Position numbers and translations under genes: made by a program. This document shows positions 29,230-64,000 of a stretch of DNA of 64,000 nt, one piece after another. The notes beneath the pieces are model-generated. The model did no database searches. It worked only from the letters and a program-made list of their open reading frames with translations, and was not told where the DNA came from. Source of the stretch: Chytriomyces cf. hyalinus JEL632 (Eukaryota; Chytridiomycota; Chytridiomycetes; Chytridiales; Chytriomycetaceae); contig JAIWWG010000029.1 in assembly GCA_025435555.1 (NCBI GenBank), forward strand, positions 273,940 to 337,939. The letters are read 5' to 3'. Within the stretch, counting starts at the first letter, position 1. Every line of letters begins with the position of its first letter.

Positions 29230-30623
29230 AAAGCGGGGAAAAATACCAGCAGCCACACCGCCGCCGAGCATTCACCATGTATGTGTTGCTGACAGTCTCG
29301 TCGGCCTCAACTGGCAGTGCAGTCCAAATAGGATTGTTTGTGTTGCACAGTTTGGCAAAACGCAAACAGTCAGGATCAAGGGAGTTTGCAGGAAGCGTGT
29401 TTTTTGTTGCATTCCGTAAGACAGACAAAAAGGCATCGATTGGTGGGGCATGTCACACTTTAGTGTCGTGTCCATCATCATACACTCACTGCACACACAC
29501 ACACACAGCGTCTTTGATTTTGTGTACCAAGTAAACATGACGTACATGTCAATGAAAAGACGACGGGACAAGAGAGTGGAAGGGAGCAGTCACTTGTTGG
29601 GAAAGGCACAAGCACAAGCACAAGCACAAGCACAGGCACAGGCAGGCTTGTTGTTGTCGTCCTTGCGCCGCTGCTGCTGCTGTTTCCCCCTTTAATAAAA
29701 TTTTATGACATGAACCCTTCATTAAAAAAAACTTACATAATAGCCAGCCAGCCAGCATTAAGCCAACAAGAAATGGAAAGTATGCAAGCCAAGAGTTTAT
29801 TTTTGAATGCATGCATGTATGTGCTTGTGGTTGTGCTTGTGGTTGTGCTTGGGATTGCGTTAAAGTATGTGTATTTTATGTTGAATACTAGCTTAGAATG
29901 AGGAAGGGGACAGACAAGCCACCCTGTGTCACGATTGGAGGATGGGGTAGGTATGAAGAGCAAGCAAGGGACGTTCAGCAAATCAAATCAAATCAAATCA
30001 AATGGCTGGCTGGCTGGCTGAGTAAGGCAGCATGGCATCTATCTCGGAGTTAAAAAGAAAAAATTGTAGTTGGGGCAAAAGTGGCGCAAGCAAGCCCAAG
30101 TGAGTGGGGTTCTTGTGCAGCAGAGAGAGGGAGGGAGTGAGTGAGTGAGTGAGAGAAAGAGAAAGAGAAAGAGAAAGAGAGTACTCTCATTCCTTCCCCA
30201 ATAGAAAAGAAAAGAAGAAGAAGAACAAGAATGACGCAAGAATCATCCAAATGTCGCAATTTTTTAATCTCCCTTTTTTTGCACCCAGGAGCATGAGACT
30301 CAGTCGGCGGACAATTTCAATTTCCTATTACGTAATGACAAACAGCCACGCAAAAACTATTTAAATATTTCTGACAAAGACTGTAATAAATAAACCCTTT
30401 CCTTCTTCCTTGCTTTGAAAAAAACTTTAAAAAGGAGACAAGCCCCCAATCCAATCCAATCCAATCCAATCCAAAACAAGAACAACAACAACAAATCCCG
30501 AATAATCGGTTTCCAACTAAAAAAAACCTAAGCCTGAATTCACAAAAGAACCTACATCCACCTACAACATCCACATCCACATACAACATCCACATCCACC
30601 TACAACATCCACATCCACACCGA
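29230..30623. repeat. Microsatellite-rich intergenic region
   Basis: A 1.4-kb gap with many short tandem arrays. They include (ACAAGC)n at ~29606-29645, (GCTTGTGGTTGT)2 at 29822-29846, (AATCA)n at ~29978-30002, GGCT repeats at 30004-30020, (GTGA)n at 30135-30153 and GAAAGA repeats to ~30180. (CCAAT)n at ~30449-30473 and ACATCCACATCC-type 12-mers at ~30550-30620 are just before the homeodomain ATG. No gene is supported inside. Confidence 0.7.
30449..30473 (+). promoter_or_regulatory. Tandem CCAAT pentamers upstream of the homeodomain gene
   Basis: Five consecutive CCAAT units begin about 175 bp upstream of the ATG at 30624. CCAAT is the core bound by the Hap2/3/5 (NF-Y) complex. A pentamer array of the motif could be a dense binding platform or simply a microsatellite; the sequence cannot tell these apart. 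Confidence 0.3.
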
Positions 30624-30674
30624 ATGTTCAACATTGACGACTTCCTCGTCCGCAACTCCTTTGCCATCAACAGC

Positions 30675-30748
<74 letters not shown>

Positions 30749-31612
30749 CCAGGACTCCCACAACAACCTGCACTCTTACTCTTACTACCACCACTACCAC
30801 TACCAGGACCCATCCCACCATTTCGACCAGTCTCCCCCCCGCACTCCTCCACATCCCAGCCACCCTAAAAACGCATTCATGGCCCTGGCTGCTGCAACCC
30901 CAGACAGTCTCCATTTCGTCCCAATCACACACGTCCCAGTGAATATCGATCCTCATCTCTCACCCAACAACTCCCATGTAAGGCTCCCTGTATCACCCGC
31001 TGACGGTGGTCTCGGCTGGATGCTTGATATGGAGGCTGAGCCTTCTTCACAGCCTTTCAACTTTCACCAAATCCAGCAACAGCACGTTCAACCCACCCAG
31101 CAACAACAACAACAACAACTAAAGCAACTACAACATCCAAATCCAATGGGCATGATTCTTCATCAGCTGGATGACAGTCACTTGTCAAAACATGCCTATC
31201 TACAGCAGCAACATCACTTTACCCACTGTCCAAACCCATCCTCTCTACAGCAGTACCGCAGCAGCTACCAGTCACCAGCAGCAGTCCAATCCTTCAACAA
31301 CAACTCTCCACCAATCGCCCAATTCGCCGCCGACTTCCGCGACATGCATCATGTTACTTCTTCTTGCCCAACAATTTTTCCCAAAAACTCACAATCTCCG
31401 ATCCCGATCCCGATCCACACAAACACGTTCACCATCAAACACGCCACCACTACCACTCCTCCAGCGACTGCGCACTCAAACTCGGCATCTCCAGAATACC
31501 CCGATGACGATAACTGCGATGACGATCAAGTATGTTCACCATCTTCCTCTCCTGTCGACCATGAATCCATTTTCGCACGATACCTCACTGTCATGAGTGA
31601 AACCAAGACTGG

Positions 31613-31643
<31 letters not shown>

Positions 31644-31985
31644 ACTACTGCTCCACCAGCTTTACACTCGTTCGCGACTACTACTACTACTACCACCACC
31701 ACCACCAACAACAACCATCCTTCCTTCACCACCACACACACTTCTACTGCTACCCTCAAATCAAAACCATACCTCCGCCGTCCCATCCAAAAAGACCAAA
31801 AACACGTCTTGAAACGCATGTTTAAACAAGACCCAAGCCCGTTACCTGCTCAAGTCCGATGGATCGCTGCCGAACTTGGGCTTGAAAAGAACAAGGTGAA
31901 AGTTTGGTTTCAAAATCAGAGAGCCCAGTTGAAGCGGCGGCAGAGTGTCATTGCTTTACGACCAAACAACAACAAGTCGGCATGA
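30624..31985 (+). CDS. Homeodomain transcription factor with poly-Asn tracts
   Basis: One exon of 453 codons. The homeodomain is at the extreme C-terminus, about residues 392-448. It starts RRPIQKDQKHVLKRMF and ends in the recognition helix KVKVWFQNQRAQLKRRQ, with the invariant W-F-x-N-x-R. Spacing is that of a typical 60-residue domain, not an atypical TALE type. The rest is low complexity: a run of about 26 Asn near the N-terminus from (AAC)n, Gln-rich stretches, a second Asn run and a Thr run. These look like disordered activation regions. Targets and role are unknown. The repeats make allele-length variation likely. Confidence 0.93.
30671..30749 (+). repeat. (AAC)n trinucleotide repeat coding poly-Asn
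   Basis: About 26 near-uninterrupted AAC codons inside the homeodomain gene. The reverse strand and other frames read as Val, Cys, Leu or Thr runs, which explains several spurious long open frames here. Confidence 0.95.
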
Positions 31986-32240
31986 ACAGCTGCTCTTTTA
32001 TTTTTCTCTTTTTTCTCCTCCTCCTCTCCCCAGCAAATAGTCTCCCCTCTTTACCACGCAAATGTTGACATGAATGTATAATAAATATCCCATCCGTAAT
32101 CTTGGGTCGCACTTTGAACAGTTGTCATACGAAAATCAAACATTTTGTGGTGGCGCATTTGAACATCGCTACGTTGCCTTTACTGACCAGCGATACAGCA
32201 GACTCACTTTTTCAACCATAAATTACCAGAAAATGACAAC

Positions 32241-39783: not shown

Positions 39784-42654
<2,871 letters not shown>

Positions 42655-44496: not shown

Positions 44497-45006
44497 ATGT
44501 TTACAGTGCAATGTGCACTCAGTAATGGCCCCGAGCTCACCATGAGCCGTGTAAAATTCAAACGCGACGCCACTGTCTTCGACCTCAAGAGCGCTACTCA
44601 TGCGAAGATGGCTAATGACCTGGCAAGGGTTGACGAACACCGACTCACTCTTGTGAGGATTTTCAAGGAGGTGGAGAAGGAAAATGAGGAGACGGAGGTG
44701 GTGGGCGGCCTTAAGAAAGCCGGACTCATGAGCTCCGCTGAGTGTCTCAGCCGCGCAAGCTACGGCAAGCTACCTGAAGATGCAGTCGAGCCGGAGCCTT
44801 CCCATTACGATTCTATTGGCGCCTGCAAGACAATAAACGGATGCTGTTTCAAAGTGCGCCTTTCTTTTTCGATGACTCTTGTACGACCAGGCCTTCTATG
44901 TCATTCATTGCTTGCGACAAAAATCGCATTATTAAGCGACGGCGCGGCGCTTGGAAGTGTAAACGTTGTATTTGTAGCCGAGTTTACAGACTGCAATGCA
45001 GTGTAA
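44497..45006 (+). CDS. Possible crinkler-type (CRN) header ORF
   Basis: An ATG frame of 169 codons; only the first ~119 look like real protein, with a possible donor GTGCGC at 44854. It opens FTVQCALSNGPELTM and has DATVFDLKSATHAKM then DEHRLTLVRIFKEVE. The order of a short beta-type start, a helix and the DxxxLTL strand resembles the ubiquitin-like header of crinkler/RHS-type proteins known from chytrids, Rhizophagus and oomycetes. The match is by layout, not by a decisive motif. A nuclease or kinase-like C-terminal domain that CRN proteins usually carry is not seen downstream. It may be truncated by the broken minus-strand gene at 44901-45175. Confidence 0.3.
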   Translation: MFTVQCALSNGPELTMSRVKFKRDATVFDLKSATHAKMANDLARVDEHRLTLVRIFKEVEKENEETEVVGGLKKAGLMSSAECLSRASYGKLPEDAVEPEPSHYDSIGACKTINGCCFKVRLSFSMTLVRPGLLCHSLLATKIALLSDGAALGSVNVVFVAEFTDCNAV

Positions 45007-45175: not shown

Positions 45176-45573
45176 TACTTGTGACACTGTAAAAACAATT
45201 TTGTAGTTTATATTTTATTGTTAACAAAGAACGCTTTTTGCGCCGAATTTGGTGACAACGCTGTCACGCAACTGGCTGGTGGCGATGCCGGTAACCCAAT
45301 GGACAACTCCGACCATGCTGCAGCATCTCAAGTTTCCAATGGTCTGGCAATTGACCAAACCTTCTACAAGCACATGTTTTGTCAACGCCAAAGGCAAACC
45401 AAATTCCACTCTGAAGTTCGCACAAAAAGGTGATTTATTATATTCTATTTTCCGGAAACAACAGATGCGGCGAAAGGATGCTTTCATGGGTCGAATGAGC
45501 AGGCGACCCCGTGGTCGCAGTGGTCGCATGGTGGCAGTGGTAGCCGAACAGTTTCCTCGTCCAATTCTTCAAC
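45176..45573. other. Unassigned accessory sequence
   Basis: Several short open frames on both strands (for example 45249-45433 plus) with no recognisable domain and no good start. It links the broken virion-like gene to the inverted repeat. Confidence 0.3.
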
Positions 45574-45649
45574 AAGAAAATGTGTCGTCCGTCTTGTTCA
45601 TGCTAAGATGGAGTATTGGGGAACGGAACGACAGAGTTTTGGGGAACCA

Positions 45650-45704
45650 TGGAGCCGTGGGGGACGATGGAGCCGTGGGGGACGATGGAGCCGTGGGGAG
45701 CTGA
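45650..45704 (+). repeat. 18-bp tandem repeat, three copies
   Basis: Three copies of GGAGCCGTGGGGGACGAT, the last partial, just upstream of the minisatellite. Mirrored in the right arm near 63870-63925. Confidence 0.85.
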
Positions 45705-45809
45705 ACGGTGGATTCTGTTACTTTTAAAATGGCGTTAGAATGAAGTAGGGAATGCGCGGTGGAGGAATGTGGGAGTTGGTTAAGTGCGTTCCGTTGACAG
45801 AACGCTGAT

Positions 45810-46330
45810 TCAGTGGGGGCCTTGCCATCGACACAGCTACCGCACGGAACGCGGAACCAGTGGGGGCCTTGCCATGGACACGGCTACCGCACAGTCCACA
45901 GATACAGTGGGGGCCTTGCCATCAACACGGTTACCGCACAGTCCGCAGATACAGTGGGGGCCTTGCCATGGACACGGCTACCGCACAGTCCGCAGATACA
46001 GTGGGGGCCTTGCCATCAACACGGTTACCGCACAGTCCGCAGATACAGTGGGGGCCTTGCCATGGACACGGCTACCGCACAGTCCGCAGACACAGTGGGG
46101 GCCTTGCCATGGACACGGCTACCGCACAGTCCGCAGATACAGTGGGGGCCTTGCCATGGACACGGTTACCGCACAGTCCGCAGATACAGTGGGGGCCTTG
46201 CCATGGACACGGCTACCGCACAGTCCGCAGATACAGTGGGGGCCTTGCCATGGACACGGCTGACGCACGGAGCGCGGAACCAGTGGGGGCCTTGCCATGG
46301 ACTCGGCTAACGCACAGTCTGCAGATGCAG
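45810..46330 (+). repeat. 47-bp minisatellite, about 11 units
   Basis: Units start CAGTGGGGGCCTTGCCAT and contain ACACGGCTACCGCACAGTCC; spacing between successive starts is 47 bp (for example 45905 to 45952). Variants alternate ATGGACACGG with ATCAACACGG. Because 47 is not a multiple of three and no unit contains a plus-strand stop in any frame, all three forward frames are open for ~500 bp and read the same three peptide phrases in rotation (MGALPWTRLPHSPQI-type). Translation is not supported by any other sign. Confidence 0.95.
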
Positions 46331-48060
46331 CCATGGAAACGCACGGAACTGGCCTTGAGTTTGAAGGGTGGACGGGAGGACTTATCTTGTTGTGAAATAT
46401 TTGCCATCCAAACGGCCACGCGTCTGCAAATATTTTTTATAGTTTTATATTTTATTAAAATCTGTCACGACAAGCAAGGTATCTTGATGACGAGTAAACC
46501 AAATGCAGTGCTGTTGCTGACTTCACATCAAGCATGGAGCAGAAGGCCATGGGAAAAGTTGTCTGAGAATGGTTGTTTTAGAACAAAGACTGCAGTCCGT
46601 CTTTCCGCAACATTATTTTGGCAACCCTTCTGGACAGCAGCACAGAAACTTATTTCAGACGCAAACAAACAGAATGGGTTTGAACAATAAAAAGCATATG
46701 CAGTCAACTGAGTGTCAATACGGATATGGTTCGTGCATTCAAGACTTTTTTAAATTAGGCGGGATTCAGGACGTTGACTGATATTCCACAGAGCGAAAAG
46801 CATACAAATCAAGTCTTTGATGAAATCGAGCTTAAATTTGGGTTTGGTTCCGGCGCCTGGAACACTGTAACAAATGGGATCGCTGCGACAAGTGGAATCA
46901 AACAGACGTTGGGCACTTCAGAACATGAATTGTCTCATGACCCAACCCTGCCAACAGAAGACACAGTTCAACTCATTGTTTGTCAGGATGAGGAAATTAA
47001 GGATGAACTGGGGCACGCAGTTGCATGGATGGACAAGTTCCCACCATTGTGGTTCAAAGCAGCCGAAAAGCACTATTTCGAACGTCAGGAATGTTGCGGA
47101 TCCTGGTCTGTTGAATTCAGTCGTAGGACGTGTAATTCTTTATTTACACATTGCCAATCTTAACTATTTCTTTACGATCACTCATCTTTCTTCTGGATGT
47201 TTTTCAGTCTCTGTCTTTTCATCCAATCATTTTATTCGATAGTTGTTTTACAAACTACCTCTTTGTTCTGTTTTTTCTGATTCACACAATGGGTCACTTG
47301 ACCATTGTTCTTAGTGTTTCGTATTTGACATCTGCTTCTCCCTTGAGAACAGATCTTTATCTTCTACTATTTGCTCTCTGTTGCAGTATTGTTCTTATCG
47401 ACTGCGTATATCCTTAGGTTAGCCAGTTATGATACTTCTTCTTTCTTACGCTAATAGTTGTATGATTCCTTAGTTGATATATTAAAGAGTAGTAACTATC
47501 GATACAAGCTTTAAGAACTTCACGAAGATCGCTATATAGTCGTGTTCCAGCGCCTATATTTCTACATGGTCAAGGTGGACCAGCAGTCTCCTCATGTACT
47601 CAACATAAAGGAAAGCTCAAAATCTCTGGAATACATGAAGATGTGGGAAACAGGTGTTTGAGCACCTGCAGACCCCATACGTAACAAAGATGTGAAATAC
47701 ACATGACTTCATGTAAACATAGACAAGCCACAGGGGCAGTAACACACCATCAATCACACACACAGGTCTCTGGCACATCTGCCAAGTCCTACAAGCACCC
47801 ACGTGCCATCCACAGCTATTTATGGTCACTGGATGAGAAGTTGTGAGGCATATTGCCAAGACCCCAATAAAGCTTTATTTACACAAAGTTGGGACCTTGA
47901 ACGATCCACCACAATAACACACCATGTTTCTTCATCTGATAGATACTCAGAGAACTCCGACACCACATTGTCAGGTATCAGATAGTCTTCAGGATGAACT
48001 TCAGAGAAGTCTGATTCATTGTCAGATAGGAGTTTAATACCCTTAGAAGGTGTATTGACT
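46331..48060. other. Unassigned arm sequence between minisatellite and retroelement
   Basis: A 390-nt plus-strand frame at 46774-47163 opens at a TTG and contains DELGHAVAWMDKFPPLWFK and a Cys-rich end, but has no ATG and no family match I know. The rest (47170-48060) is A/T-rich with short frames only. Mirrored at 61514-63244. Confidence 0.3.
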
Positions 48061-48072
48061 AACAACACCTCA

Positions 48073-48589
48073 TACTTGGATGATCCAAAATGGGGTTCAG
48101 CTATACCACAAGCCTACGCTGATGCAAGCTACGCAGAAGACACAGGCAGGAAGTGCCACAGTCACATGGTTTAGCAAGAAACAGCCAGTAGTTGCTCTCT
48201 CTTCCACAGAGGCAGAATACTATGCCCTAAGTGAAGCTGTCAAAGAAGCACTATGGGTGTGGCACCTGCTAGATGAAGTTGGTGTCAAGCTCAATGACCC
48301 CACAACCATTCACCAAGACAACATGTTGACCATAGCTATAGCTCTAAACCCAATACAGCACCAGCATGTAAAACATATGGATGTAAAGGTACATTTTCTA
48401 CGAGACCACTTAGACAAGCAGGATGTGAAGATGGTCTACTGTCCTACTGAAGACATGGTAGCTGGCATAATGACAAAAAGTCTACCTCCAAGACTACACT
48501 GCAAATTCATGCAGTTGCTCAGTCTTAGATCATTGGCAGCCCTCAAGGGTTTGACCAACCACCCATACACAAATGAATGGAAGTTTTGA
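48073..48589 (+). pseudogene. Copia RNase H fragment
   Basis: Reads YLDDPKWGSAI and YADASYAED in one frame. After a frame change near 48150 it reads GSATVTWFSKKQPVVALSST, EAEYYALSEAVKEALW, HQDNMLTIAIALNPIQHQHV and VYCPTEDMVAGIMTKSLPP. These are the copia RNase H and tail motifs. It ends in TGA at 48587-48589. Confidence 0.85.
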
Positions 48590-48654
48590 TAAACTCCAGG
48601 TGACACAATATGCATCCTCATGTAATTATTGTTTCTCATTTAACACAACTACAA

Positions 48655-49938
48655 ATGTACCCCAAAGAAGCCACCACGTTATCTCTCAAGCCCCTCCCAG
48701 TGTTGGCAAGCGCTGCTACGTTTGCTGAGTTCAAGAGGAACCTCCTCAACAAGTGTGGAAGCACTTACGGTTTCTACAAGGAGATCTATGTCGAGGAATC
48801 TGAAAGAACAGCCACCAAATGCAGTTTCAACCGACTCACTGACTGACCTACCGACAGACAATCACTGACCGACTTCGAGGCGGAGCAACTGGGACGAGTT
48901 GAGGCTGCTGAGGAAGCTGCAAGAGAATGCTGGATAGCCAAACTGGAAGCTGCCACTGCCCTGGAGAATGCATTGACAAACAACAACAGGCCAGACACTC
49001 CAACTGATGCAGGTGCACTCCAGGCTATTTGTGGAGCCTCACAGGCAGCTGCCAACGCGCATGAGTTAGCTAAGTACACCTTGGATGCTCAACGATGCAA
49101 GTTTGATTCTGAAATCAGACTTTACTCCCTTCACCAACAGGCCCTTGACCCTCTGATCAAACGTTTCGAATCAAAGGAGAAGGCTCATGATTGTTGGGTG
49201 GCCCTACTCAGGACCTCCATTGATCTAGTTGACTCATCAGTGACCATTGCCCAGTGTGATCACTTTGGCGCAATGCTAGATGAACTGTATCTCCAGTGCA
49301 ACTCACGCAACAGCATTGACATGCTTGCGGAGTGGGACCAATCCTGGGAAACTATAGTGGGAGAATTTCCCATCAACAGGAAGCTGTGGTATGAGCTCCA
49401 CAGCCGGCACTTCACCATCAATAAAAGCTGCACACCAGAGGTGGACGCTGCGCTGGCTGTGAAGTTCAAACGCCGAATCCTGGAGGTGGTACCCGTGGGT
49501 GACAGGGACTATGCCCCACTGACGCTTGCCATCCAGAATGACAAGCTAAAGTGCACCATGGGGTCAGCTGAGATACTGAAGCAGCTGACAGAATTGGCCC
49601 AACTGCAGTCTTACAACGTTAAGCCAGTGAAAGCCAAGATCATGGGTCAAAAGAGTGGCAAACAAGCTGCTGATGACTTGGATCTGAGAGAGAAGAAGCA
49701 ACCAAAAATGGAGTTCTATTGTTCTCACCACAAGGAGAACAGCTCTCATTCTACAGAGGATTGTCGGTTCTTGGTATCACAACAAAATTGGGGAAAGGCT
49801 CAGGTGCCCAAAGCCAGTCTCAGGAAGAAGACTAGTACCCCCAGTACAAAGCCATCAACCATCCTTAAGAAGGCCAAGACACCAATTTCATCTAGTAGAA
49901 AGGCTTACCAGACTTTGAAGCCAAAGTGGAAGAGCTGA
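48655..49938 (+). pseudogene. Copia gag with one in-frame stop
   Basis: From the ATG at 48655 (MYPKEATTLSLKPLPVLAS) the frame runs to a single TGA at 48844-48846 and continues in the same frame to 49938. The body is helical capsid-like sequence (EIRLYSLHQQALDPLIKRFE). Near the C-terminus a degenerate zinc knuckle (CSHHKENSSHSTEDC) and a Lys/Ser/Thr-rich tail are seen. The same stop is in both arms. Confidence 0.75.
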
Positions 49939-50885
49939 CCACTTGTTTAGCCAAGTCTGAATCCTCTACACCCATATGGATCCTGTCTTCCAAGACCAAT
50001 GGTGAGAAGATCTTCCACCACATGGATACTGTACCCACAAGTGCTTATTCCAATCCACACAAAATCTATCTAGACTCTGGTGCCAATCATCACATTGCGC
50101 CTGTCAAGCTGGACATCAGTAACGTTCAACATGTAGGTTCCACAACCATCGTCACTGACACGACTAACAACCAAAGACACATACAGGTGGAAGGCAACTT
50201 CAACCACTGTGTGGGCAGTAAGAATGTCAAGTTTCGGAAAGTCTTACAGTCTGACAAAGTAACTGACATTCTAATCTCTACTTCTGAATGGCTCAAAGGT
50301 ACATCTGACTGGATCATCATGACTGCTGAAGGTGCCTACTACCAGGAAGATGGATGTGATGTGCTTCATGAAGTGGCCAGGGTTGTCAATGGCATGTACC
50401 ATATGACACCTCTGGTCCAGCTCTCAGTCCAAAAGGCAGGTTCAGCCAACTGGATTGCTGCCTGCAGTAACAAAGCCACACCAGACTGCCCCATCCTGTC
50501 GGCTACCAGACGCTACAGCAAATTCAAGATGATCATGCACCCTGATGACTTGGCGCAAGCCTTGTCAATGGAAGCAGATGCTCTCGATGTCTTGTCAGCC
50601 AACATCTCTGTTGGTGAAGATGCTGACACTGAATCCAGCATGGAAGTAGAGGTAATCTATATATTCTCCATCATAACACCAGATCTGCCACCAACTCAAC
50701 CCAATTACACTCTCAGGACAACATGTAATGTGGAGTCAAGGGTTCTTTTGGAGATGCACAGGGTTTTTGGACATTTTCATTTCAAAAAGATTTTCCAAAC
50801 CTTGCGCACAGGGGAAAATCTCTCAAAGCCCACTCTATGCAACTTCATCCCCCGCTATGCGAAATCTTGGAAGGATACATACTGA
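49926..50885 (+). pseudogene. Copia protease and start of integrase
   Basis: In a different frame from gag, overlapping its last 13 nt. The retropepsin active site is YLDSGANHHI. The GAG-pre-integrase zinc-binding region begins with LLEMHRVFGHFHFKKI near the end. The frame then fails and the integrase continues in another frame. Confidence 0.8.
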
Positions 50886-51663
50886 CTGTGTGCCTCTGCC
50901 CAAGGAAACAATACCCCATCGGCACTTACATGGCACAGTCATAGTTGATGGCTGGTCCAGGTTCACAATCATGGTCACACACAGACTCAAAAGTGAATCT
51001 GAGAACATCCTCAAGTCTACCATTGACACTTGGGAGCAAGCACATGCACCACTGAAAGTCAGTGCAGTGAGGCATGATGGTGGAGAACTGAGAGACTTGT
51101 TCAAACAGTTCTGCAACACACGCACACCTCAAATAGCCAATGAAACATCACCACTGTACAACAAGGAGTACAACGGGATGGTAGAGAGACATTACAGTAT
51201 ACACAAAGGCAATGCTATCATGCTGCTGGCCCAGTCAAATCTACCACTACGTTTCACAAGCTACGCCCTCCAGTACTCAATGCATGTCAAAAACTGCATG
51301 AATCACCCAGAGGAAATACACACATCCCCTTACGAGCTTTGGTATGGAAGAGAACCTGATCTGACAAGGATTCAACCCTTTGGCTGCAAAGTCACAGTCT
51401 GGACTCACCCCCGCCAAAGAAAATCTTTCTACTCAGATAGAGGCTCCACAGGGATCTTTCTCGGTTACAACGGTAATTCCCTCTACTTGGTGTATCAAGA
51501 CAACCGCGTAAAGTCGTGCACCAATTTGGCATTCCACTCTACCTCATTCCCTGGTATGACCATCACAAGAGGAAACTCAGACATGTTATCTGAGTCTGAA
51601 CCAGACATCGAGCATGCTCCGAGATATGAGCTAAGGCCAGTCATTAAAACTCAGTGTCTCTGA
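50728..51663 (+). pseudogene. Copia integrase core
   Basis: Catalytic core with VIVDGWSRFTIMVTH, a second acidic residue in the SAVRHDGGEL region, and YNGMVERHYSIHKGNAIMLL holding the third. LWYGREPDLTRIQPFGCKV is the usual copia post-core block. It ends in TGA at 51661-51663, after which the RT resumes in the same frame with its N-terminal ~100 residues missing. Confidence 0.85.
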
Positions 51664-51666
51664 ATA

Positions 51667-52659
51667 ATGATTGTGGTAGCCATATTCTTGAACTACCTCA
51701 TAGAACAGACTGACATAGATACTGCATACCTAAACTCAGATCTGGACACGGTCAATTACATGTCCATATCCATGAATGATCAAGATGGTAATCCATATAT
51801 ACTACACCTAATGAAGAGCCTCTATGGCCTTCACCAATCAGGTAGACAATGGAACAAACACATTGCCGCATCCCTGATAGAACAAGGATTCAGCAGGGCT
51901 AAAACAGATCCATGCCTCTTTTACAAGAGAGGTCAAAAAGGTGTCATTCTACTCTATGTTGATGACCTGATTATTATGGCTCTAACTCAAGGGGAGATAG
52001 AAACCATAAAATCCAACCTACAGAAGAATTTCTCAATCAAAGAACTTGGCAAAGCCAAACACATACTTGGTATGACAATTGAGAAAGTCCCTGGTGGGAT
52101 CTACCTCGGGCAGTATAACTACGCAGAAGAGATTCTGAGTAGCATGAACATGTCTGACCATGACTCCAAACTTACACCCATGGTGGAAGGTTGGAAGCAT
52201 GACCCCAACAGCCCAAATGTAAGCCCAGAGAAGAACAAGACATACCACTCATGCACAATGAAGGTAGCTTACCTGGCAAACTGTACACAACCAGATATCT
52301 CATTCACTGTCAACACTCTTGCGCAATACCAAAATGACTGCAGAGAACATGACTGGAATGCACTGATAAGAGTACTCAGATACATCAAAGGTACATGGGA
52401 TCATGGTCTGTTCTATACAAAAGAAAACGGCACAAGTGTTGCCACATTACACACAAACAAAGGTTTGAGCCTGGATGGGCGCTATTTGAGAAGTAGGGAT
52501 CACCAGACCCTCTGGAACAGAGGTGATCAGGGATCTGAATACAGTACACAAAGTAAAATGAGAACGCTGCAATGTGCAGACATGGTAGGCAGCACTATTA
52601 GTCAGCATTTGATAGCCAGACATCAGGACTACTGCTGCCAGGTACAGCAGTCACACTAG
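51667..52659 (+). pseudogene. Copia reverse transcriptase, lacking N-terminus and RNase H
   Basis: Begins at the TDIDTAYLNSDLD motif and has LMKSLYGLHQSGRQWNKHI, the catalytic LLYVDDLIIMA, KAKHILGMTIE and LRYIKGTWDHGLFYTKENG. It lacks the finger region. After ~52437 the frame runs into unrelated sequence to a stop at 52659. In this arm the frame is unbroken across 51935-51939. Confidence 0.85.
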
Positions 52660-52910
52660 CAGGTGTTTGTTTGAATTTCTATGAGGCCTTTCTACCAAAC
52701 TTAAACACAGCAACTGTTAGTTGTGTGCACAGCCAGATCAGAGATAACAACTTAAAGAGAAAAACTAAAACAAAAACTCCTTCTTATATCCCTTTTCCAG
52801 GCTGTTCAGCAGCGTGCCCCAGTGCATGCCCTCAAGTCCCACAATTCTCGCTCCTTGTTCACCGTCTCTCTGAGATAACAAGAACATACTGATCTTTTCC
52901 CTATTGAAGG

Positions 52911-53263
52911 TTGTTGGCCACAACAATCTCTAGACAACCTGTTACATGATCTTTATTGTAATACTGTCCACCATCTCATGGTCAGACTGTCCTTCCCACT
53001 TACACTCATTGAGTTGGATGGATGGTTTCTTGATGTGACGCGTTGATTGAGTTTTTGGAATTCCATCTCCATTTTTCATCTCCTCATCTCCATTTTCAGC
53101 CCCCATCACATCACAAATGTCGTGTCATCATTTATAATGACGCGACATCTTAGAAATTGCAAAGTCACAGTAACTGGTATAAAAGTGGATACTGTAGCAG
53201 GACAAATAAAACAAGAATCAGCATTCAGCTCCGGTAGTTGAAAGCTCTTGTCTCCTGACAACT
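52911..53263 (+). repeat. Candidate copia LTR (single copy per arm)
   Basis: Begins TGTTGGCCACAACAATC and could end CTCCTGACA, matching the TG...CA rule. It has a TATA box (TATAAAAG at 53178-53185) and AATAAA near 53206, as expected of an LTR promoter and polyadenylation region. The partner LTR is not visible next to gag. The boundaries are a guess. Confidence 0.35.
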
Positions 53264-54186
53264 CCCAAATTCCCAAAAGTACGCATATTCTAGCGGGATT
53301 TCCAGTGGTAATACTCTGTGTATTACAACAGTTAAGGTTTGCGACCACAGACCCGCAGGTCACTGGTTCAACCCACACTGCCAATTTCATGCAGCTATCT
53401 TCTGATCTTTATAAGGAAATAAGCAGAAGAAGAGGAAATAGAAATCAATTTAGATAAGTATTCTATTACCACTTTTGTATGACTAATCTGTCAAGCCAGT
53501 CAAGCAATTAATCAATAACCTTATCCACTGTGGGATATTGATTATAATTGACAAGCCTTTGCTGTCAGGCCAGTTCTGATTAACTAATTAGCCTGAAAAC
53601 TGATTTGTGAGCAATGACTCACTCACTTTTTCAGCAATTTCAAACTGGAAAATGACAAATGAGTGATTTCACATCCATAATGACTTTTCTGACTGAAAAT
53701 CTCAATTATGACAAATGAAATGGAAAAAAAGGTAGCTGAGAAGTGAAACTGAAGAAAGCCTAATTAGATTTTATGGGAGACAAAAATGTATATAAGGAGA
53801 GCTGTTTTGATGTGTTGTGATTCACCCTTAAGATAATAAATACTTATCAGCCCAAGTTCAAAACCAAACATATTTCAAGGAATGGGGCCAAGTGAACCTT
53901 AAGTGAGTTCTTTATTTCCTTTTTTATGCTTTTAACTACTTGTGCCTTCATTTTTGCAGACCTGTCAGCAAGAAAGAGCTGTTTAACCTTTGTCACGTGC
54001 AGCTTCAAAATGTTGTGGAATGAATCTTTAGGTGTCTGTCAAAATGTTTCCCCATCTTGAAGTTGATGCATCCTTTTTCCCTTGAAATTCAACGCAACCA
54101 TGCAATTGCGTTTCCTATTCTTTTTAATATTATTCGAATGAATTTTGATTCTGATTCTTTTGTGGATGGGGTGGAGGAGGGGAGGA
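53264..54186. other. Unassigned arm sequence with a tRNA-like B box
   Basis: GGTTCAACCC near 53369-53378 follows CAGGTCACT, like the T-arm of a tRNA or a tRNA-derived SINE, but no acceptor stem pairs with it. The rest to 54186 is A/T-rich without frames of note. Mirrored at 55388-56310. Confidence 0.25.
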
Positions 54187-54272
54187 TTTAGATTCAGATT
54201 CAGATTCAGATTCAGATTCAGATTCAGATTCAGATTCAGATTCAGATTCAGATTCAGATTCAGATTCAGATT
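54187..54272 (+). repeat. (GATTCA)n hexamer array
   Basis: About 14 units. One plus frame reads Asp-Ser repeats leading into SEDEEVVDVVEPRTWQDG and ending at a stop near 54380. The minus strand reads Glu-Ser or Asn-Leu runs. Flanking coding potential is weak; it could be the acidic N-terminus of a lost transposase-like gene. Confidence 0.85.
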
Positions 54273-54780
54273 CGGAGGATGAAGAGGTTGTAGATGTGGT
54301 GGAGCCTCGGACATGGCAGGATGGCATTGCAGATGAAATGTGGGTGGACTATCAAGCACATCTTACTTGCGGCGCATAATAAATTGGTGATTGTTCAACT
54401 TTATTGTTCACCTTTTATGTTCACCAACAGAAGTGCTCTTTTCTCAATCTGCATTTCAAATTGCACCCCGATTTTTCAAATACTGCTCAAAATGGTTTTT
54501 CAAGATATCAAAGTGCCAGTATCTCCAGATCATGATTTTATGGACTGGATATTACAATCTGAAAAATCATCAAAAAATCTCTTTCTTGGGCGAACGAGGC
54601 ATCCATGGGAAACTCATCAAGTGAAATGTTGGCATTGCATAAACATAATTTGATTTCATTTTTATACTTTCAGGAAAGAACAATCAATTTAGGCCCCCGT
54701 TTGGCAAGGAAATTTTTCCGTATTTGCCATACACCAAATAAAGAACCAAATCAGTATCTGGACAAAACAGTATTTCTGGC

Positions 54781-54795
54781 AGAACAGTATTTCTT
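54781..54795. repeat. Centre (spacer) of the giant palindrome
   Basis: Left-flanking GGACAAAACAGTATTTCTGG and its complement CAGAAATACTGTTTTGTCC enclose ~15 nt (AGAACAGTATTTCTT), which itself repeats part of the flank. This could fold as a near-perfect hairpin tip. Confidence 0.9.
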
Positions 54796-55300
54796 GTCAG
54801 AAATACTGTTTTGTCCAGATACTGATTTGGTTCTTTATTGGTGTATGGCAAATACGGAAAAATTCCTTGCCAAACGGGGCCTAAATTGATTGTTCTTCCT
54901 GAAAGTATAAAAAATGAAATCAAATTATGTTTATGCAATGCCAACATTTCACTTGATGATTTTCCCATGGGATGCCTCGTTCGCCCAAGAAAGAGATTTT
55001 TGATGATTTTTCAGATTGTAATATCCAGTCCATAAAATCATGATCTGGAGATACTGGCACTTTGATATCTTGAAAAACCATTTTGAGCAGTATATTGAAA
55101 AATCGGGGTGCAATTTGAAATGCAGATTGAGAAAAGAGCACTTCTGTTGGTGAACATAAAAGGTGAACAATAAAGTTGAACAATCACCAATTTATTATGC
55201 GCCGCAAGTAAGATGTGCTTGATAGTCCACCCACATTTCATCTGCAATGCCATCCTGCCATGTCCGAGGCTCCACCACATCTACAACCTCTTCATCCTCC

Positions 55301-55385
55301 GAATCTGAATCTGAATCTGAATCTGAATCTGAATCTGAATCTGAATCTGAATCTGAATCTGAATCTGAATCTGAATCTGAATCTA
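55301..55385 (-). repeat. (GATTCA)n hexamer array, right-arm copy
   Basis: Reverse complement of the array at 54187-54272, with the same approximate number of units. Equal copy number in both arms is notable for a tract expected to vary. Confidence 0.85.
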
Positions 55386-56310
55386 AATCCTCCCCTCCTC
55401 CACCCCATCCACAAAAGAATCAGAATCAAAAATTCATTCGAATAATATTAAAAGAATAGGAAACGCAATTGCATGGTTGCGTTGAATTTCAAGGGAAAAA
55501 GGATGCATCAACTTCAAGATGGGGAAACATTTTGACAGACACCTAAAGATTCATTCCACAACATTTTGAAGCTGCACGTGACAAAGGTTAAACAGCTCTT
55601 TCTTGCTGACAGGTCTGCAAAAATGAAGGCACAAGTAGTTAAAAGCATAAAAAAGGAAATAAAGAACTCACTTAAGGTTCACTTGGCCCCATTCCTTGAA
55701 ATATGTTTGGTTTTGAACTTGGGCTGATAAGTATTTATTATCTTAAGGGTGAATCACAACACATCAAAACAGCTCTCCTTATATACATTTTTGTCTCCCA
55801 TAAAATCTAATTAGGCTTTCTTCAGTTTCACTTCTCAGCTACCTTTTTTTCCATTTCATTTGTCATAATTGAGATTTTCAGTCAGAAAAGTCATTATGGA
55901 TGTGAAATCACTCATTTGTCATTTTCCAGTTTGAAATTGCTGAAAAAGTGAGTGAGTCATTGCTCACAAATCAGTTTTCAGGCTAATTAGTTAATCAGAA
56001 CTGGCCTGACAGCAAAGGCTTGTCAATTATAATCAATATCCCACAGTGGATAAGGTTATTGATTAATTGCTTGACTGGCTTGACAGATTAGTCATACAAA
56101 AGTGGTAATAGAATACTTATCTAAATTGATTTCTATTTCCTCTTCTTCTGCTTATTTCCTTATAAAGATCAGAAGATAGCTGCATGAAATTGGCAGTGTG
56201 GGTTGAACCAGTGACCTGCGGGTCTGTGGTCGCAAACCTTAACTGTTGTAATACACAGAGTATTACCACTGGAAATCCCGCTAGAATATGCGTACTTTTG
56301 GGAATTTGGG

Positions 56311-56663
56311 AGTTGTCAGGAGACAAGAGCTTTCAACTACCGGAGCTGAATGCTGATTCTTGTTTTATTTGTCCTGCTACAGTATCCACTTTTATACCAG
56401 TTACTGTGACTTTGCAATTTCTAAGATGTCGCGTCATTATAAATGATGACACGACATTTGTGATGTGATGGGGGCTGAAAATGGAGATGAGGAGATGAAA
56501 AAATGGAGATGGAATTCCAAAAACTCAATCAACGCGTCACATCAAGAAACCATCCATCCAACTCAATGAGTGTAAGTGGGAAGGACAGTCTGACCATGAG
56601 ATGGTGGACAGTATTACAATAAAGATCATGTAACAGGTTGTCTAGAGATTGTTGTGGCCAACA
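56311..56663 (-). repeat. Candidate copia LTR, right-arm copy
   Basis: Mirror of 52911-53263, with one extra base in an A run at 56498-56503. Confidence 0.35.
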
Positions 56664-56915
56664 ACCTTCAATAGGGAAAAGATCAGTATGTTCTTGTTAT
56701 CTCAGAGAGACGGTGAACAAGGAGCGAGAATTGTGGGACTTGAGGGCATGCACTGGGGCACGCTGCTGAACAGCCTGGAAAAGGGATATAAGAAGGAGTT
56801 TTTGTTTTAGTTTTTCTCTTTAAGTTGTTATCTCTGATCTGGCTGTGCACACAACTAACAGTTGCTGTGTTTAAGTTTGGTAGAAAGGCCTCATAGAAAT
56901 TCAAACAAACACCTG

Positions 56916-59900
56916 CTAGTGTGACTGCTGTACCTGGCAGCAGTAGTCCTGATGTCTGGCTATCAAATGCTGACTAATAGTGCTGCCTACCATGTCTGCA
57001 CATTGCAGCGTTCTCATTTTACTTTGTGTACTGTATTCAGATCCCTGATCACCTCTGTTCCAGAGGGTCTGGTGATCCCTACTTCTCAAATAGCGCCCAT
57101 CCAGGCTCAAACCTTTGTTTGTGTGTAATGTGGCAACACTTGTGCCGTTTTCTTTTGTATAGAACAGACCATGATCCCATGTACCTTTGATGTATCTGAG
57201 TACTCTTATCAGTGCATTCCAGTCATGTTCTCTGCAGTCATTTTGGTATTGCGCAAGAGTGTTGACAGTGAATGAGATATCTGGTTGTGTACAGTTTGCC
57301 AGGTAAGCTACCTTCATTGTGCATGAGTGGTATGTCTTGTTCTTCTCTGGGCTTACATTTGGGCTGTTGGGGTCATGCTTCCAACCTTCCACCATGGGTG
57401 TAAGTTTGGAGTCATGGTCAGACATGTTCATGCTACTCAGAATCTCTTCTGCGTAGTTATACTGCCCGAGGTAGATCCCACCAGGGACTTTCTCAATTGT
57501 CATACCAAGTATGTGTTTGGCTTTGCCAAGTTCTTTGATTGAGAAATTCTTCTGTAGGTTGGATTTTATGGTTTCTATCTCCCCTTGAGTTAGAGCCATA
57601 ATAATCAGGTCATCAACATAGAGTAGAATGACACCTTTTGACCTCTCTTGTAAAAGAGGCATGGATCTGTTTTAGCCCTGCTGAATCCTTGTTCTATCAG
57701 GGATGCGGCAATGTGTTTGTTCCATTGTCTACCTGATTGGTGAAGGCCATAGAGGCTCTTCATTAGGTGTAGTATATATGGATTACCATCTTGATCATTC
57801 ATGGATATGGACATGTAATTGACCGTGTCCAGATCTGAGTTTAGGTATGCAGTATCTATGTCAGTCTGTTCTATGAGGTAGTTCAAGAATATGGCTACCA
57901 CAATCATTATTCAGAGACACTGAGTTTTAATGACTGGCCTTAGCTCATATCTCGGAGCATGCTCGATGTCTGGTTCAGACTCAGATAACATGTCTGAGTT
58001 TCCTCTTGTGATGGTCATACCAGGGAATGAGGTAGAGTGGAATGCCAAATTGGTGCACGACTTTACGCGGTTGTCTTGATACACCAAGTAGAGGGAATTA
58101 CCGTTGTAACCGAGAAAGATCCCTGTGGAGCCTCTATCTGAGTAGAAAGATTTTCTTTGGCGGGGGTGAGTCCAGACTGTGACTTTGCAGCCAAAGGGTT
58201 GAATCCTTGTCAGATCAGGTTCTCTTCCATACCAAAGCTCGTAAGGGGATGTGTGTATTTCCTCTGGGTGATTCATGCAGTTTTTGACATGCATTGAGTA
58301 CTGGAGGGCGTAGCTTGTGAAACGTAGTGGTAGATTTGACTGGGCCAGCAGCATGATAGCATTGCCTTTGTGTATACTGTAATGTCTCTCTACCATCCCG
58401 TTGTACTCCTTGTTGTACAGTGGTGATGTTTCATTGGCTATTTGAGGTGTGCGTGTGTTGCAGAACTGTTTGAACAAGTCTCTCAGTTCTCCACCATCAT
58501 GCCTCACTGCACTGACTTTCAGTGGTGCATGTGCTTGCTCCCAAGTGTCAATGGTAGACTTGAGGATGTTCTCAGATTCACTTTTGAGTCTGTGTGTGAC
58601 CATGATTGTGAACCTGGACCAGCCATCAACTATGACTGTGCCATGTAAGTGCCGATGGGGTATTGTTTCCTTGGGCAGAGGCACACAGTCAGTATGTATC
58701 CTTCCAAGATTTCGCATAGCGGGGGATGAAGTTGCATAGAGTGGGCTTTGAGAGATTTTCCCCTGTGCGCAAGGTTTGGAAAATCTTTTTGAAATGAAAA
58801 TGTCCAAAAACCCTGTGCATCTCCAAAAGAACCCTTGACTCCACATTACATGTTGTCCTGAGAGTGTAATTGGGTTGAGTTGGTGGCAGATCTGGTGTTA
58901 TGATGGAGAATATATAGATTACCTCTACTTCCATGCTGGATTCAGTGTCAGCATCTTCACCAACAGAGATGTTGGCTGACAAGACATCGAGAGCATCTGC
59001 TTCCATTGACAAGGCTTGCGCCAAGTCATCAGGGTGCATGATCATCTTGAATTTGCTGTAGCGTCTGGTAGCCGACAGGATGGGGCAGTCTGGTGTGGCT
59101 TTGTTACTGCAGGCAGCAATCCAGTTGGCTGAACCTGCCTTTTGGACTGAGAGCTGGACCAGAGGTGTCATATGGTACATGCCATTGACAACCCTGGCCA
59201 CTTCATGAAGCACATCACATCCATCTTCCTGGTAGTAGGCACCTTCAGCAGTCATGATGATCCAGTCAGATGTACCTTTGAGCCATTCAGAAGTAGAGAT
59301 TAGAATGTCAGTTACTTTGTCAGACTGTAAGACTTTCCGAAACTTGACATTCTTACTGCCCACACAGTGGTTGAAGTTGCCTTCCACCTGTATGTGTCTT
59401 TGGTTGTTAGTCGTGTCAGTGACGATGGTTGTGGAACCTACATGTTGAACGTTACTGATGTCCAGCTTGACAGGCGCAATGTGATGATTGGCACCAGAGT
59501 CTAGATAGATTTTGTGTGGATTGGAATAAGCACTTGTGGGTACAGTATCCATGTGGTGGAAGATCTTCTCACCATTGGTCTTGGAAGACAGGATCCATAT
59601 GGGTGTAGAGGATTCAGACTTGGCTAAACAAGTGGTCAGCTCTTCCACTTTGGCTTCAAAGTCTGGTAAGCCTTTCTACTAGATGAAATTGGTGTCTTGG
59701 CCTTCTTAAGGATGGTTGATGGCTTTGTACTGGGGGTACTAGTCTTCTTCCTGAGACTGGCTTTGGGCACCTGAGCCTTTCCCCAATTTTGTTGTGATAC
59801 CAAGAACCGACAATCCTCTGTAGAATGAGAGCTGTTCTCCTTGTGGTGAGAACAATAGAACTCCATTTTTGGTTGCTTCTTCTCTCTCAGATCCAAGTCA

Positions 59901-61501
59901 TCAGCAGCTTGTTTGCCACTCTTTTGACCCATGATCTTGGCTTTCACTGGCTTAACGTTGTAAGACTGCAGTTGGGCCAATTCTGTCAGCTGCTTCAGTA
60001 TCTCAGCTGACCCCATGGTGCACTTTAGCTTGTCATTCTGGATGGCAAGCGTCAGTGGGGCATAGTCCCTGTCACCCACGGGTACCACCTCCAGGATTCG
60101 GCGTTTGAACTTCACAGCCAGCGCAGCGTCCACCTCTGGTGTGCAGCTTTTATTGATGGTGAAGTGCCGGCTGTGGAGCTCATACCACAGCTTCCTGTTG
60201 ATGGGAAATTCTCCCACTATAGTTTCCCAGGATTGGTCCCACTCCGCAAGCATGTCAATGCTGTTGCGTGAGTTGCACTGGAGATACAGTTCATCTAGCA
60301 TTGCGCCAAAGTGATCACACTGGGCAATGGTCACTGATGAGTCAACTAGATCAATGGAGGTCCTGAGTAGGGCCACCCAACAATCATGAGCCTTCTCCTT
60401 TGATTCGAAACGTTTGATCAGAGGGTCAAGGGCCTGTTGGTGAAGGGAGTAAAGTCTGATTTCAGAATCAAACTTGCATCGTTGAGCATCCAAGGTGTAC
60501 TTAGCTAACTCATGCGCGTTGGCAGCTGCCTGTGAGGCTCCACAAATAGCCTGGAGTGCACCTGCATCAGTTGGAGTGTCTGGCCTGTTGTTGTTTGTCA
60601 ATGCATTCTCCAGGGCAGTGGCAGCTTCCAGTTTGGCTATCCAGCATTCTCTTGCAGCTTCCTCAGCAGCCTCAACTCGTCCCAGTTGCTCCGCCTCGAA
60701 GTCGGTCAGTGATTGTCTGTCGGTAGGTCAGTCAGTGAGTCGGTTGAAACTGCATTTGGTGGCTGTTCTTTCAGATTCCTCGACATAGATCTCCTTGTAG
60801 AAACCGTAAGTGCTTCCACACTTGTTGAGGAGGTTCCTCTTGAACTCAGCAAACGTAGCAGCGCTTGCCAACACTGGGAGGGGCTTGAGAGATAACGTGG
60901 TGGCTTCTTTGGGGTACATTTGTAGTTGTGTTAAATGAGAAACAATAATTACATGAGGATGCATATTGTGTCACCTGGAGTTTATCAAAACTTCCATTCA
61001 TTTGTGTATGGGTGGTTGGTCAAACCCTTGAGGGCTGCCAATGATCTAAGACTGAGCAACTGCATGAATTTGCAGTGTAGTCTTGGAGGTAGACTTTTTG
61101 TCATTATGCCAGCTACCATGTCTTCAGTAGGACAGTAGACCATCTTCACATCCTGCTTGTCTAAGTGGTCTCGTAGAAAATGTACCTTTACATCCATATG
61201 TTTTACATGCTGGTGCTGTATTGGGTTTAGAGCTATAGCTATGGTCAACATGTTGTCTTGGTGAATGGTTGTGGGGTCATTGAGCTTGACACCAACTTCA
61301 TCTAGCAGGTGCCACACCCATAGTGCTTCTTTGACAGCTTCACTTAGGGCATAGTATTCTGCCTCTGTGGAAGAGAGAGCAACTACTGGCTGTTTCTTGC
61401 TAAACCATGTGACTGTGGCACTTCCTGCCTGTGTCTTCTGCGTAGCTTGCATCAGCGTAGGCTTGTGGTATAGCTGAACCCCATTTTGGATCATCCAAGT
61501 A
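56916..61501 (-). mobile_element. Decayed Ty1/copia retroelement in permuted order, right arm
   Basis: Minus-strand mirror of 48073-52659: RNase H fragment at 60985-61501, gag at 59636-60919, protease at 58689-59648, integrase at 57911-58846, and reverse transcriptase in two pieces at 57605-57907 and 56916-57662. The same in-frame stops and internal deletion are present. The only change I found within it is the shorter T run at 57636-57639, which splits the RT just before its YVDD motif. Confidence 0.85.
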
Positions 61502-63244
61502 TGAGGTGTTGTTAGTCAATACACCTTCTAAGGGTATTAAACTCCTATCTGACAATGAATCAGACTTCTCTGAAGTTCATCCTGAAGACTATCTGATACC
61601 TGACAATGTGGTGTCGGAGTTCTCTGAGTATCTATCAGATGAAGAAACATGGTGTGTTATTGTGGTGGATCGTTCAAGGTCCCAACTTTGTGTAAATAAA
61701 GCTTTATTGGGGTCTTGGCAATATGCCTCACAACTTCTCATCCAGTGACCATAAATAGCTGTGGATGGCACGTGGGTGCTTGTAGGACTTGGCAGATGTG
61801 CCAGAGACCTGTGTGTGTGATTGATGGTGTGTTACTGCCCCTGTGGCTTGTCTATGTTTACATGAAGTCATGTGTATTTCACATCTTTGTTACGTATGGG
61901 GTCTGCAGGTGCTCAAACACCTGTTTCCCACATCTTCATGTATTCCAGAGATTTTGAGCTTTCCTTTATGTTGAGTACATGAGGAGACTGCTGGTCCACC
62001 TTGACCATGTAGAAATATAGGCGCTGGAACACGACTATATAGCGATCTTCGTGAAGTTCTTAAAGCTTGTATCGATAGTTACTACTCTTTAATATATCAA
62101 CTAAGGAATCATACAACTATTAGCGTAAGAAAGAAGAAGTATCATAACTGGCTAACCTAAGGATATACGCAGTCGATAAGAACAATACTGCAACAGAGAG
62201 CAAATAGTAGAAGATAAAGATCTGTTCTCAAGGGAGAAGCAGATGTCAAATACGAAACACTAAGAACAATGGTCAAGTGAACCCATTGTGTGAATCAGAA
62301 AAAACAGAACAAAGAGGTAGTTTGTAAAACAACTATCGAATAAAATGATTGGATGAAAAGACAGAGACTGAAAAACATCCAGAAGAAAGATGAGTGATCG
62401 TAAAGAAATAGTTAAGATTGGCAATGTGTAAATAAAGAATTACACGTCCTACGACTGAATTCAACAGACCAGGATCCGCAACATTCCTGACGTTCGAAAT
62501 AGTGCTTTTCGGCTGCTTTGAACCACAATGGTGGGAACTTGTCCATCCATGCAACTGCGTGCCCCAGTTCATCCTTAATTTCCTCATCCTGACAAACAAT
62601 GAGTTGAACTGTGTCTTCTGTTGGCAGGGTTGGGTCATGAGACAATTCATGTTCTGAAGTGCCCAACGTCTGTTTGATTCCACTTGTCGCAGCGATCCCA
62701 TTTGTTACAGTGTTCCAGGCGCCGGAACCAAACCCAAATTTAAGCTCGATTTCATCAAAGACTTGATTTGTATGCTTTTCGCTCTGTGGAATATCAGTCA
62801 ACGTCCTGAATCCCGCCTAATTTAAAAAAGTCTTGAATGCACGAACCATATCCGTATTGACACTCAGTTGACTGCATATGCTTTTTATTGTTCAAACCCA
62901 TTCTGTTTGTTTGCGTCTGAAATAAGTTTCTGTGCTGCTGTCCAGAAGGGTTGCCAAAATAATGTTGCGGAAAGACGGACTGCAGTCTTTGTTCTAAAAC
63001 AACCATTCTCAGACAACTTTTCCCATGGCCTTCTGCTCCATGCTTGATGTGAAGTCAGCAACAGCACTGCATTTGGTTTACTCGTCATCAAGATACCTTG
63101 CTTGTCGTGACAGATTTTAATAAAATATAAAACTATAAAAAATATTTGCAGACGCGTGGCCGTTTGGATGGCAAATATTTCACAACAAGATAAGTCCTCC
63201 CGTCCACCCTTCAAACTCAAGGCCAGTTCCGTGCGTTTCCATGG

Positions 63245-63765
63245 CTGCATCTGCAGACTGTGCGTTAGCCGAGTCCATGGCAAGGCCCCCACTGGTTCCG
63301 CGCTCCGTGCGTCAGCCGTGTCCATGGCAAGGCCCCCACTGTATCTGCGGACTGTGCGGTAGCCGTGTCCATGGCAAGGCCCCCACTGTATCTGCGGACT
63401 GTGCGGTAACCGTGTCCATGGCAAGGCCCCCACTGTATCTGCGGACTGTGCGGTAGCCGTGTCCATGGCAAGGCCCCCACTGTGTCTGCGGACTGTGCGG
63501 TAGCCGTGTCCATGGCAAGGCCCCCACTGTATCTGCGGACTGTGCGGTAACCGTGTTGATGGCAAGGCCCCCACTGTATCTGCGGACTGTGCGGTAGCCG
63601 TGTCCATGGCAAGGCCCCCACTGTATCTGCGGACTGTGCGGTAACCGTGTTGATGGCAAGGCCCCCACTGTATCTGTGGACTGTGCGGTAGCCGTGTCCA
63701 TGGCAAGGCCCCCACTGGTTCCGCGTTCCGTGCGGTAGCTGTGTCGATGGCAAGGCCCCCACTGA
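63245..63765 (-). repeat. 47-bp minisatellite, right-arm copy
   Basis: Reverse complement of 45810-46330 with the same order of variant units, which argues that the two arms did not diverge by unequal exchange. Confidence 0.95.
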
Positions 63766-64000
63766 ATCAGCGTTCTGTCAACGGAACGCACTTAACCAAC
63801 TCCCACATTCCTCCACCGCGCATTCCCTACTTCATTCTAACGCCATTTTAAAGTAACAGAATCCACCGTTCAGCTCCCCACGGCTCCATCGTCCCCCACG
63901 GCTCCATCGTCCCCCACGGCTCCATGGTTCCCCAAAACTCTGTCGTTCCGTTCCCCAATACTCCATCTTAGCATGAACAAGACGGACGACACATTTTCTT

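Follow-up and report, generated by a model that had tools for sequence, protein, structure and literature searches.

Does the giant mirror at the end of this contig belong to the genome of Chytriomyces cf. hyalinus JEL632, or was it created while the DNA was being read and assembled? The window, by which we mean the whole stretch of 64,000 nucleotides that was analysed, corresponds to C165:273940-337939, in an assembly of 37,782,357 bases and 242 contigs. C165 is 337,939 bp long, and position 64000 of the window is its final base. Comparison of the window with itself by BLASTN gave a single minus-strand match, which spans 45574-64000. The left arm of this match (45574-54778, plus strand, 9205 bases) is the reverse complement of the right arm (54798-64000, minus strand, 9203 bases) at more than 99% identity. 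The longest mismatch-free arms at the centre were located by exact search: they are the innermost 42 bp on each side, 54737-54778 and 54798-54839, and a turn spacer of 19 nt lies between them at 54779-54797. A mirror of 9.2 kb at this level of identity needs no chance model. The earlier note had described a giant near-perfect palindrome with arms of at least 9.2 kb, and the self-comparison and the alignment of the arms, which differ at 15 places, both agree with it. The mirror that it placed from 45574 to 54780 also stands, but its spacer of about 15 nt does not: we measured 19 nt, and the arm ends at 54778.

The surroundings of the mirror were examined in the assembly as a whole. A probe covering 45400-46400 matched C165 alone, on both strands, and unique sequence adjoins the left arm on its left side. 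On the right, C165 never exits the mirror, and the end of the contig falls within the right arm. The earlier note had proposed checking whether the contig ends just beyond 64000, and C165 stops exactly at that position. A mirror that lies at a contig end and has no exit is what a fold-back artefact predicts.

The arms were then compared base by base. Global alignment resolved the 15 differences into 14 one-nucleotide indels and one substitution, with the indels leaving the right arm with eight bases missing and six extra relative to the left. The same 15 differences were found by MAFFT outside the minisatellite described below. As a reference for ordinary divergence, the left arm was aligned with diverged genomic relatives at 27 chosen loci, requiring at least 93% identity over at least 150 bases. 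These 32 alignments (17,424 columns) contained 518 mismatches and 27 one-nucleotide gaps. The ratio of substitutions to indels is about 19:1 against the relatives and is reversed to 1:14 between the arms (p about 2e-16 by Fisher's test, a value that is overstated because the 32 alignments are mutually dependent). Uncorrected long reads leave single-base indels, and the differences between the arms look like sequencing errors. Differences of this sort are expected of a fold-back artefact, and the indel-to-substitution ratio is 14:1 here as against 27:518 for genomic copies. A real duplication would be expected to show mutations in both arms and a substitution-rich spectrum, which is not the pattern found.

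The next comparison asked which arm carries the odd states. For every difference, 60 bases on each side were taken from both arms and compared with loci from other contigs. Ten of the 15 differences were comparable with other genomic copies, and the left arm agrees with those copies at nine, the right, contig-terminal arm at one. Under an equal chance of change in either arm this gives a two-sided p of 0.02, a modest result by itself, and three of the ten polarised sites depend on a single copy (L052) or a single C180 locus. A first set of loci provided seven comparable sites (47293, 51935, 53071, 54121, 54142, 54479 and 54572), each with one to six copies and with agreement judged on the length at issue; the left arm agrees at 7/7. 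At 51935, the farthest copy (L070, 84%) aligns ambiguously, and another (L063) differs by a substitution within the run, which keeps its length. The remaining three sites were each read from one copy on contig C180 (overlapping loci L076 and L078). This copy agrees with the left arm and disagrees with the right at 54710 and 54736, while at 54694, where further termini on C180 and C176 are also comparable, the copies side with the right arm and place the odd base in the left arm, near the turn. A fold-back artefact should have its odd states mostly in the terminal arm, and nine of the ten are found there, with one in the left arm. We judge the left arm to be the true locus and the right arm to be artefactual. 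One coding frame is intact in the left arm only. The list of open reading frames contains a Ty1/copia-type reverse transcriptase frame of 330 aa, open at 51667-52659 on the plus strand (Pfam RVT_2, E 5.3e-34), whereas the same stretch of the right arm (56916-57907, minus strand) is split into frames of 100 aa and 248 aa.

The differences are also unevenly placed. Eleven of the 15 lie in the 695 bp of the left arm nearest the fold (54086-54780), and the remaining 8512 bp hold four. Of the arm's homopolymer runs of at least three bases, this inner stretch contains 46 of 447 (binomial p about 1e-8), and of those of at least four bases it contains 18 of 136 (p about 2e-7). Both p-values are generous in that the boundary of the stretch was set after viewing the data. 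In our reading, the outer mirror would have been polished by ordinary reads of the locus, and the sequence of the turn would be poorly supported. Such a cluster is easier to reconcile with a turn carried by one molecule or a few than with a turn shared by all genomes, for which crossing reads would abound.

What lies at the fold may indicate how the mirror was nucleated. At 54695-54775 (plus strand), the left arm carries the end of a transposon-like repeat that is dispersed and has inverted-repeat ends; 81 ungapped bases here are 85% identical to a copy on C180 (L076:1502-1582). Homology to this copy ends three bases short of the point where the mirror starts. The fold thus lies approximately 80 bp inside the repeat, and the C180 copy runs on unmirrored. 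Approximately 670 bp further on, C180 carries a second terminus in the opposite orientation, an arrangement like that of an element bounded by terminal inverted repeats. The sequence between the facing termini does not mirror the first part, although it contains several short inverted repeats. At the point that matches the fold, the C180 copy forms a weak hairpin in a stretch picked for folding by the analyst (z -2.9, with 2/200 shuffles as good). The hairpin at the fold of C165 itself is strong (z -16.3), which is a trivial consequence of the palindrome. The repeat is a plausible snap-back nucleus, and a hairpin-prone repeat at the fold favours fold-back nucleation, in the tube or in the cell alike.

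The arms are rich in repeats, with pieces of dispersed repeats that have at least 43 and at least 40 matches elsewhere, counts that are lower bounds since scoring covered 40 candidates out of 138 and 40 out of 126. Between 51040 and 53880, matches to other copies break at shared points (about 51639, 52460, 52667, 52853 and 53870), which suggests that several repeat families are nested within each other. Two tandem arrays are mirrored as well. A 47-bp minisatellite of 11.2 copies at 45803-46330 (plus strand) recurs at 63245-63772, and a hexamer array of 14.8 copies at 54185-54273 (plus strand) recurs at 55301-55389. The MAFFT alignment at first sight placed a rearrangement of the minisatellite between the arms; it consisted of compensating gaps only, and since direct comparison showed 528/528 bases to be identical, it was dismissed as an alignment artefact. 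The earlier note had reported a like order of minisatellite variants and a like size of the hexamer array in both arms, and both observations hold, the latter array having 14.8 copies in each arm. Identical arrays are predicted by an artefact and by a natural origin alike.

Our analyses argue that the right arm is very probably a fold-back read artefact built into the end of C165 and not a real biological feature. We favour this explanation because the contig ends in the mirror, the spectrum of differences is rich in indels, their polarity is lopsided and they cluster at the fold. A strand of this locus would have folded back on itself at the hairpin-prone spot inside the transposon-like repeat. 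The cause may have lain in amplification or end repair, through snap-back copying, or in the reading of a template and its complement as one molecule. The assembler would then have extended C165 along the fold-back read, producing the 9.2-kb mirror at the contig end; ordinary locus reads would have polished most of this mirror, and raw-read indels would have persisted around the turn. The fold-back read, its cause and the history of polishing are what we infer. The earlier note had set natural and artefactual origins side by side. Its artefact branch, a fold-back read or a contig end mirrored by the assembler, gains from the position of the end of C165, the error-like differences, the 9/10 polarity and the cluster at the fold, while its natural branches find no positive support beyond the repeat at the fold.

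Comparable reads have been described. In the part of the Pacasus paper considered here, artificial palindromic long reads are documented after whole-genome amplification and are attributed to strand extension along a previously synthesised product (PMC6218980). The inverted chimeric reads of that paper and C165 each present a perfect-turn inverted copy of one locus, and the same part of the paper describes palindromic reads as hindering de novo assembly (PMC6218980). Those reads came from whole-genome-amplified DNA (PMC6218980). The mirror of C165 survives at one contig end and is without a counterpart at six other ends. Nanopore reads have a raised base-calling error at inverted-duplication junctions, according to the excerpt of PMC7229812 used here, and such junctions share with the fold of C165 a concentration of errors beside the turn. 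The junctions in that excerpt come from yeast and human samples that carry genuine inverted duplications (PMC7229812).

Six contig ends of 8.9-10 kb each, among the 242 contigs, were surveyed for similar mirrors: the left ends of C165 and C52 and the right ends of C207, C193, C111 and C62. None contained an inverted match at E 1e-8 (0/6). Mirrors at further contig ends would have supported a fold-back artefact, which does not require them. In this small sample of six ends, a general mirroring fault in the assembly is not shown.

Could the palindrome nevertheless exist in the cell? A real and very recent inverted duplication would arise if a break near the hairpin-prone repeat were resected and the strand folded back to prime its own repair synthesis, which then copied the arm outwards, in which case the palindrome would be longer than 9.2 kb and the assembly unable to follow it. 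We consider this origin unlikely. Foldback priming at breaks has been proposed as a cellular route in the portion of PMC10622511 considered here, and the foldback inversions described in that portion resemble C165 in their mirror arms, short spacer and hairpin-prone turn (PMC10622511). The fold does sit at a repeat with hairpin potential, and the C180 copy, which folds weakly, provides the hairpin-capable sequence that such a duplication would need at its turn. Reads collapsed onto the left arm could also leave the right arm less polished. However, the second arm of a collapsed palindrome should be best polished near the turn, not worst, and a turn present in every genome should have ample crossing reads, whereas errors are densest there. 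Mostly substitutions would be expected, in both arms, yet 14/15 differences are indels and 9/10 of the testable ones fall in the terminal arm; in addition, C165 does not leave the mirror. Judged against the foldback duplications in that portion of PMC10622511, a real one ought to have changes in each arm, most of them substitutions, and a well-supported turn, and C165 tends the opposite way. A related possibility is that a giant palindrome truly exists at the end of a chromosome or close to it, that it arose by a very recent snap-back at the hairpin-prone end of a transposon, and that its terminal arm was left under-polished when reads collapsed onto the left arm. This, too, has only a small chance of being correct.

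The mirror might also represent the end of a linear chromosome or element that is covalently closed into a hairpin, around which reads pass into the other strand, an explanation that we regard as extremely improbable. Such an end would likewise yield reads that enter by the left arm and leave along the mirror, and C165 does terminate within the mirror. A specialised terminal sequence would be expected at the turn, but the turn lies in a dispersed repeat that is also found inside C180. TTAGGG arrays are present on four other contigs, with those of C94 and C193 within 0.7 kb of the contig end. As for telomere repeats at the fold, exact three-unit TTAGGG and TTTAGGG patterns had no match on C165. 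A turn in every molecule should, moreover, be well supported, and the error cluster contradicts this. Very improbable as well is a purely computational mirror, in which no read turned and the repeat at the tip let the assembler link the contig with its own reverse complement. The tip is indeed repetitive, and over their outer 8.5 kb the arms disagree at four places only, as if they had been built from the same reads. A join in the graph would not easily pack 11 differences beside the turn, however, which points to at least one molecule having been read.

The telomeric repeats of this assembly have features of their own. Exact three-unit TTAGGG matches number 35, all on the plus strand and on four contigs. 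On C94 (L005, C94:20736-22864) and C193 (L033, 246901-249066; L057, 239067-249066), terminal TTAGGG arrays abut a T-run and the same element. C94 ends again in TTAGGG after that element, and C193 has a 97% direct repeat approximately 5.2 kb upstream. One frame of L057 matches Pfam RVT_1 (E 7.5e-14). The shared element looks like a telomere-associated non-LTR retrotransposon and recalls the MoTeRs and FoTeRs (PMC7367193, PMC12857005). On C111 (C111:986975-987100; L014-L032, L059), a TTAGGG array lies approximately 5.8 kb inside the right contig end and is followed by non-telomeric sequence.

Several features were also recorded in the window to the left of the mirror. A frame of 169 aa at 44497-45006 scores 22.7 bits against the Pfam Crinkler N-terminal domain (E 1.8e-4), a weak match that falls below the cut-off of 24.6. 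The frame at 41017-42120 has what we take to be the look of a flagellar coiled coil, and it had no Pfam match. At 30001-32000, the GC skew is strong (-0.37) and several short tandem arrays are present, including (CAA)27 at 30668-30749. An Rfam scan of the window gave nothing at gathering scores.

A real palindrome would illustrate how a transposon hairpin can prime palindrome formation in nature. The approach taken here offers a read-free test for mirrored contig ends, in which differences between the arms are polarised against genomic copies and their spectrum and distance from the fold are checked. If the right arm is an artefact, as we think very probable, the last 9.2 kb of C165 would be a false duplicate, and the genes and repeats of this chytrid that lie there would be counted twice.
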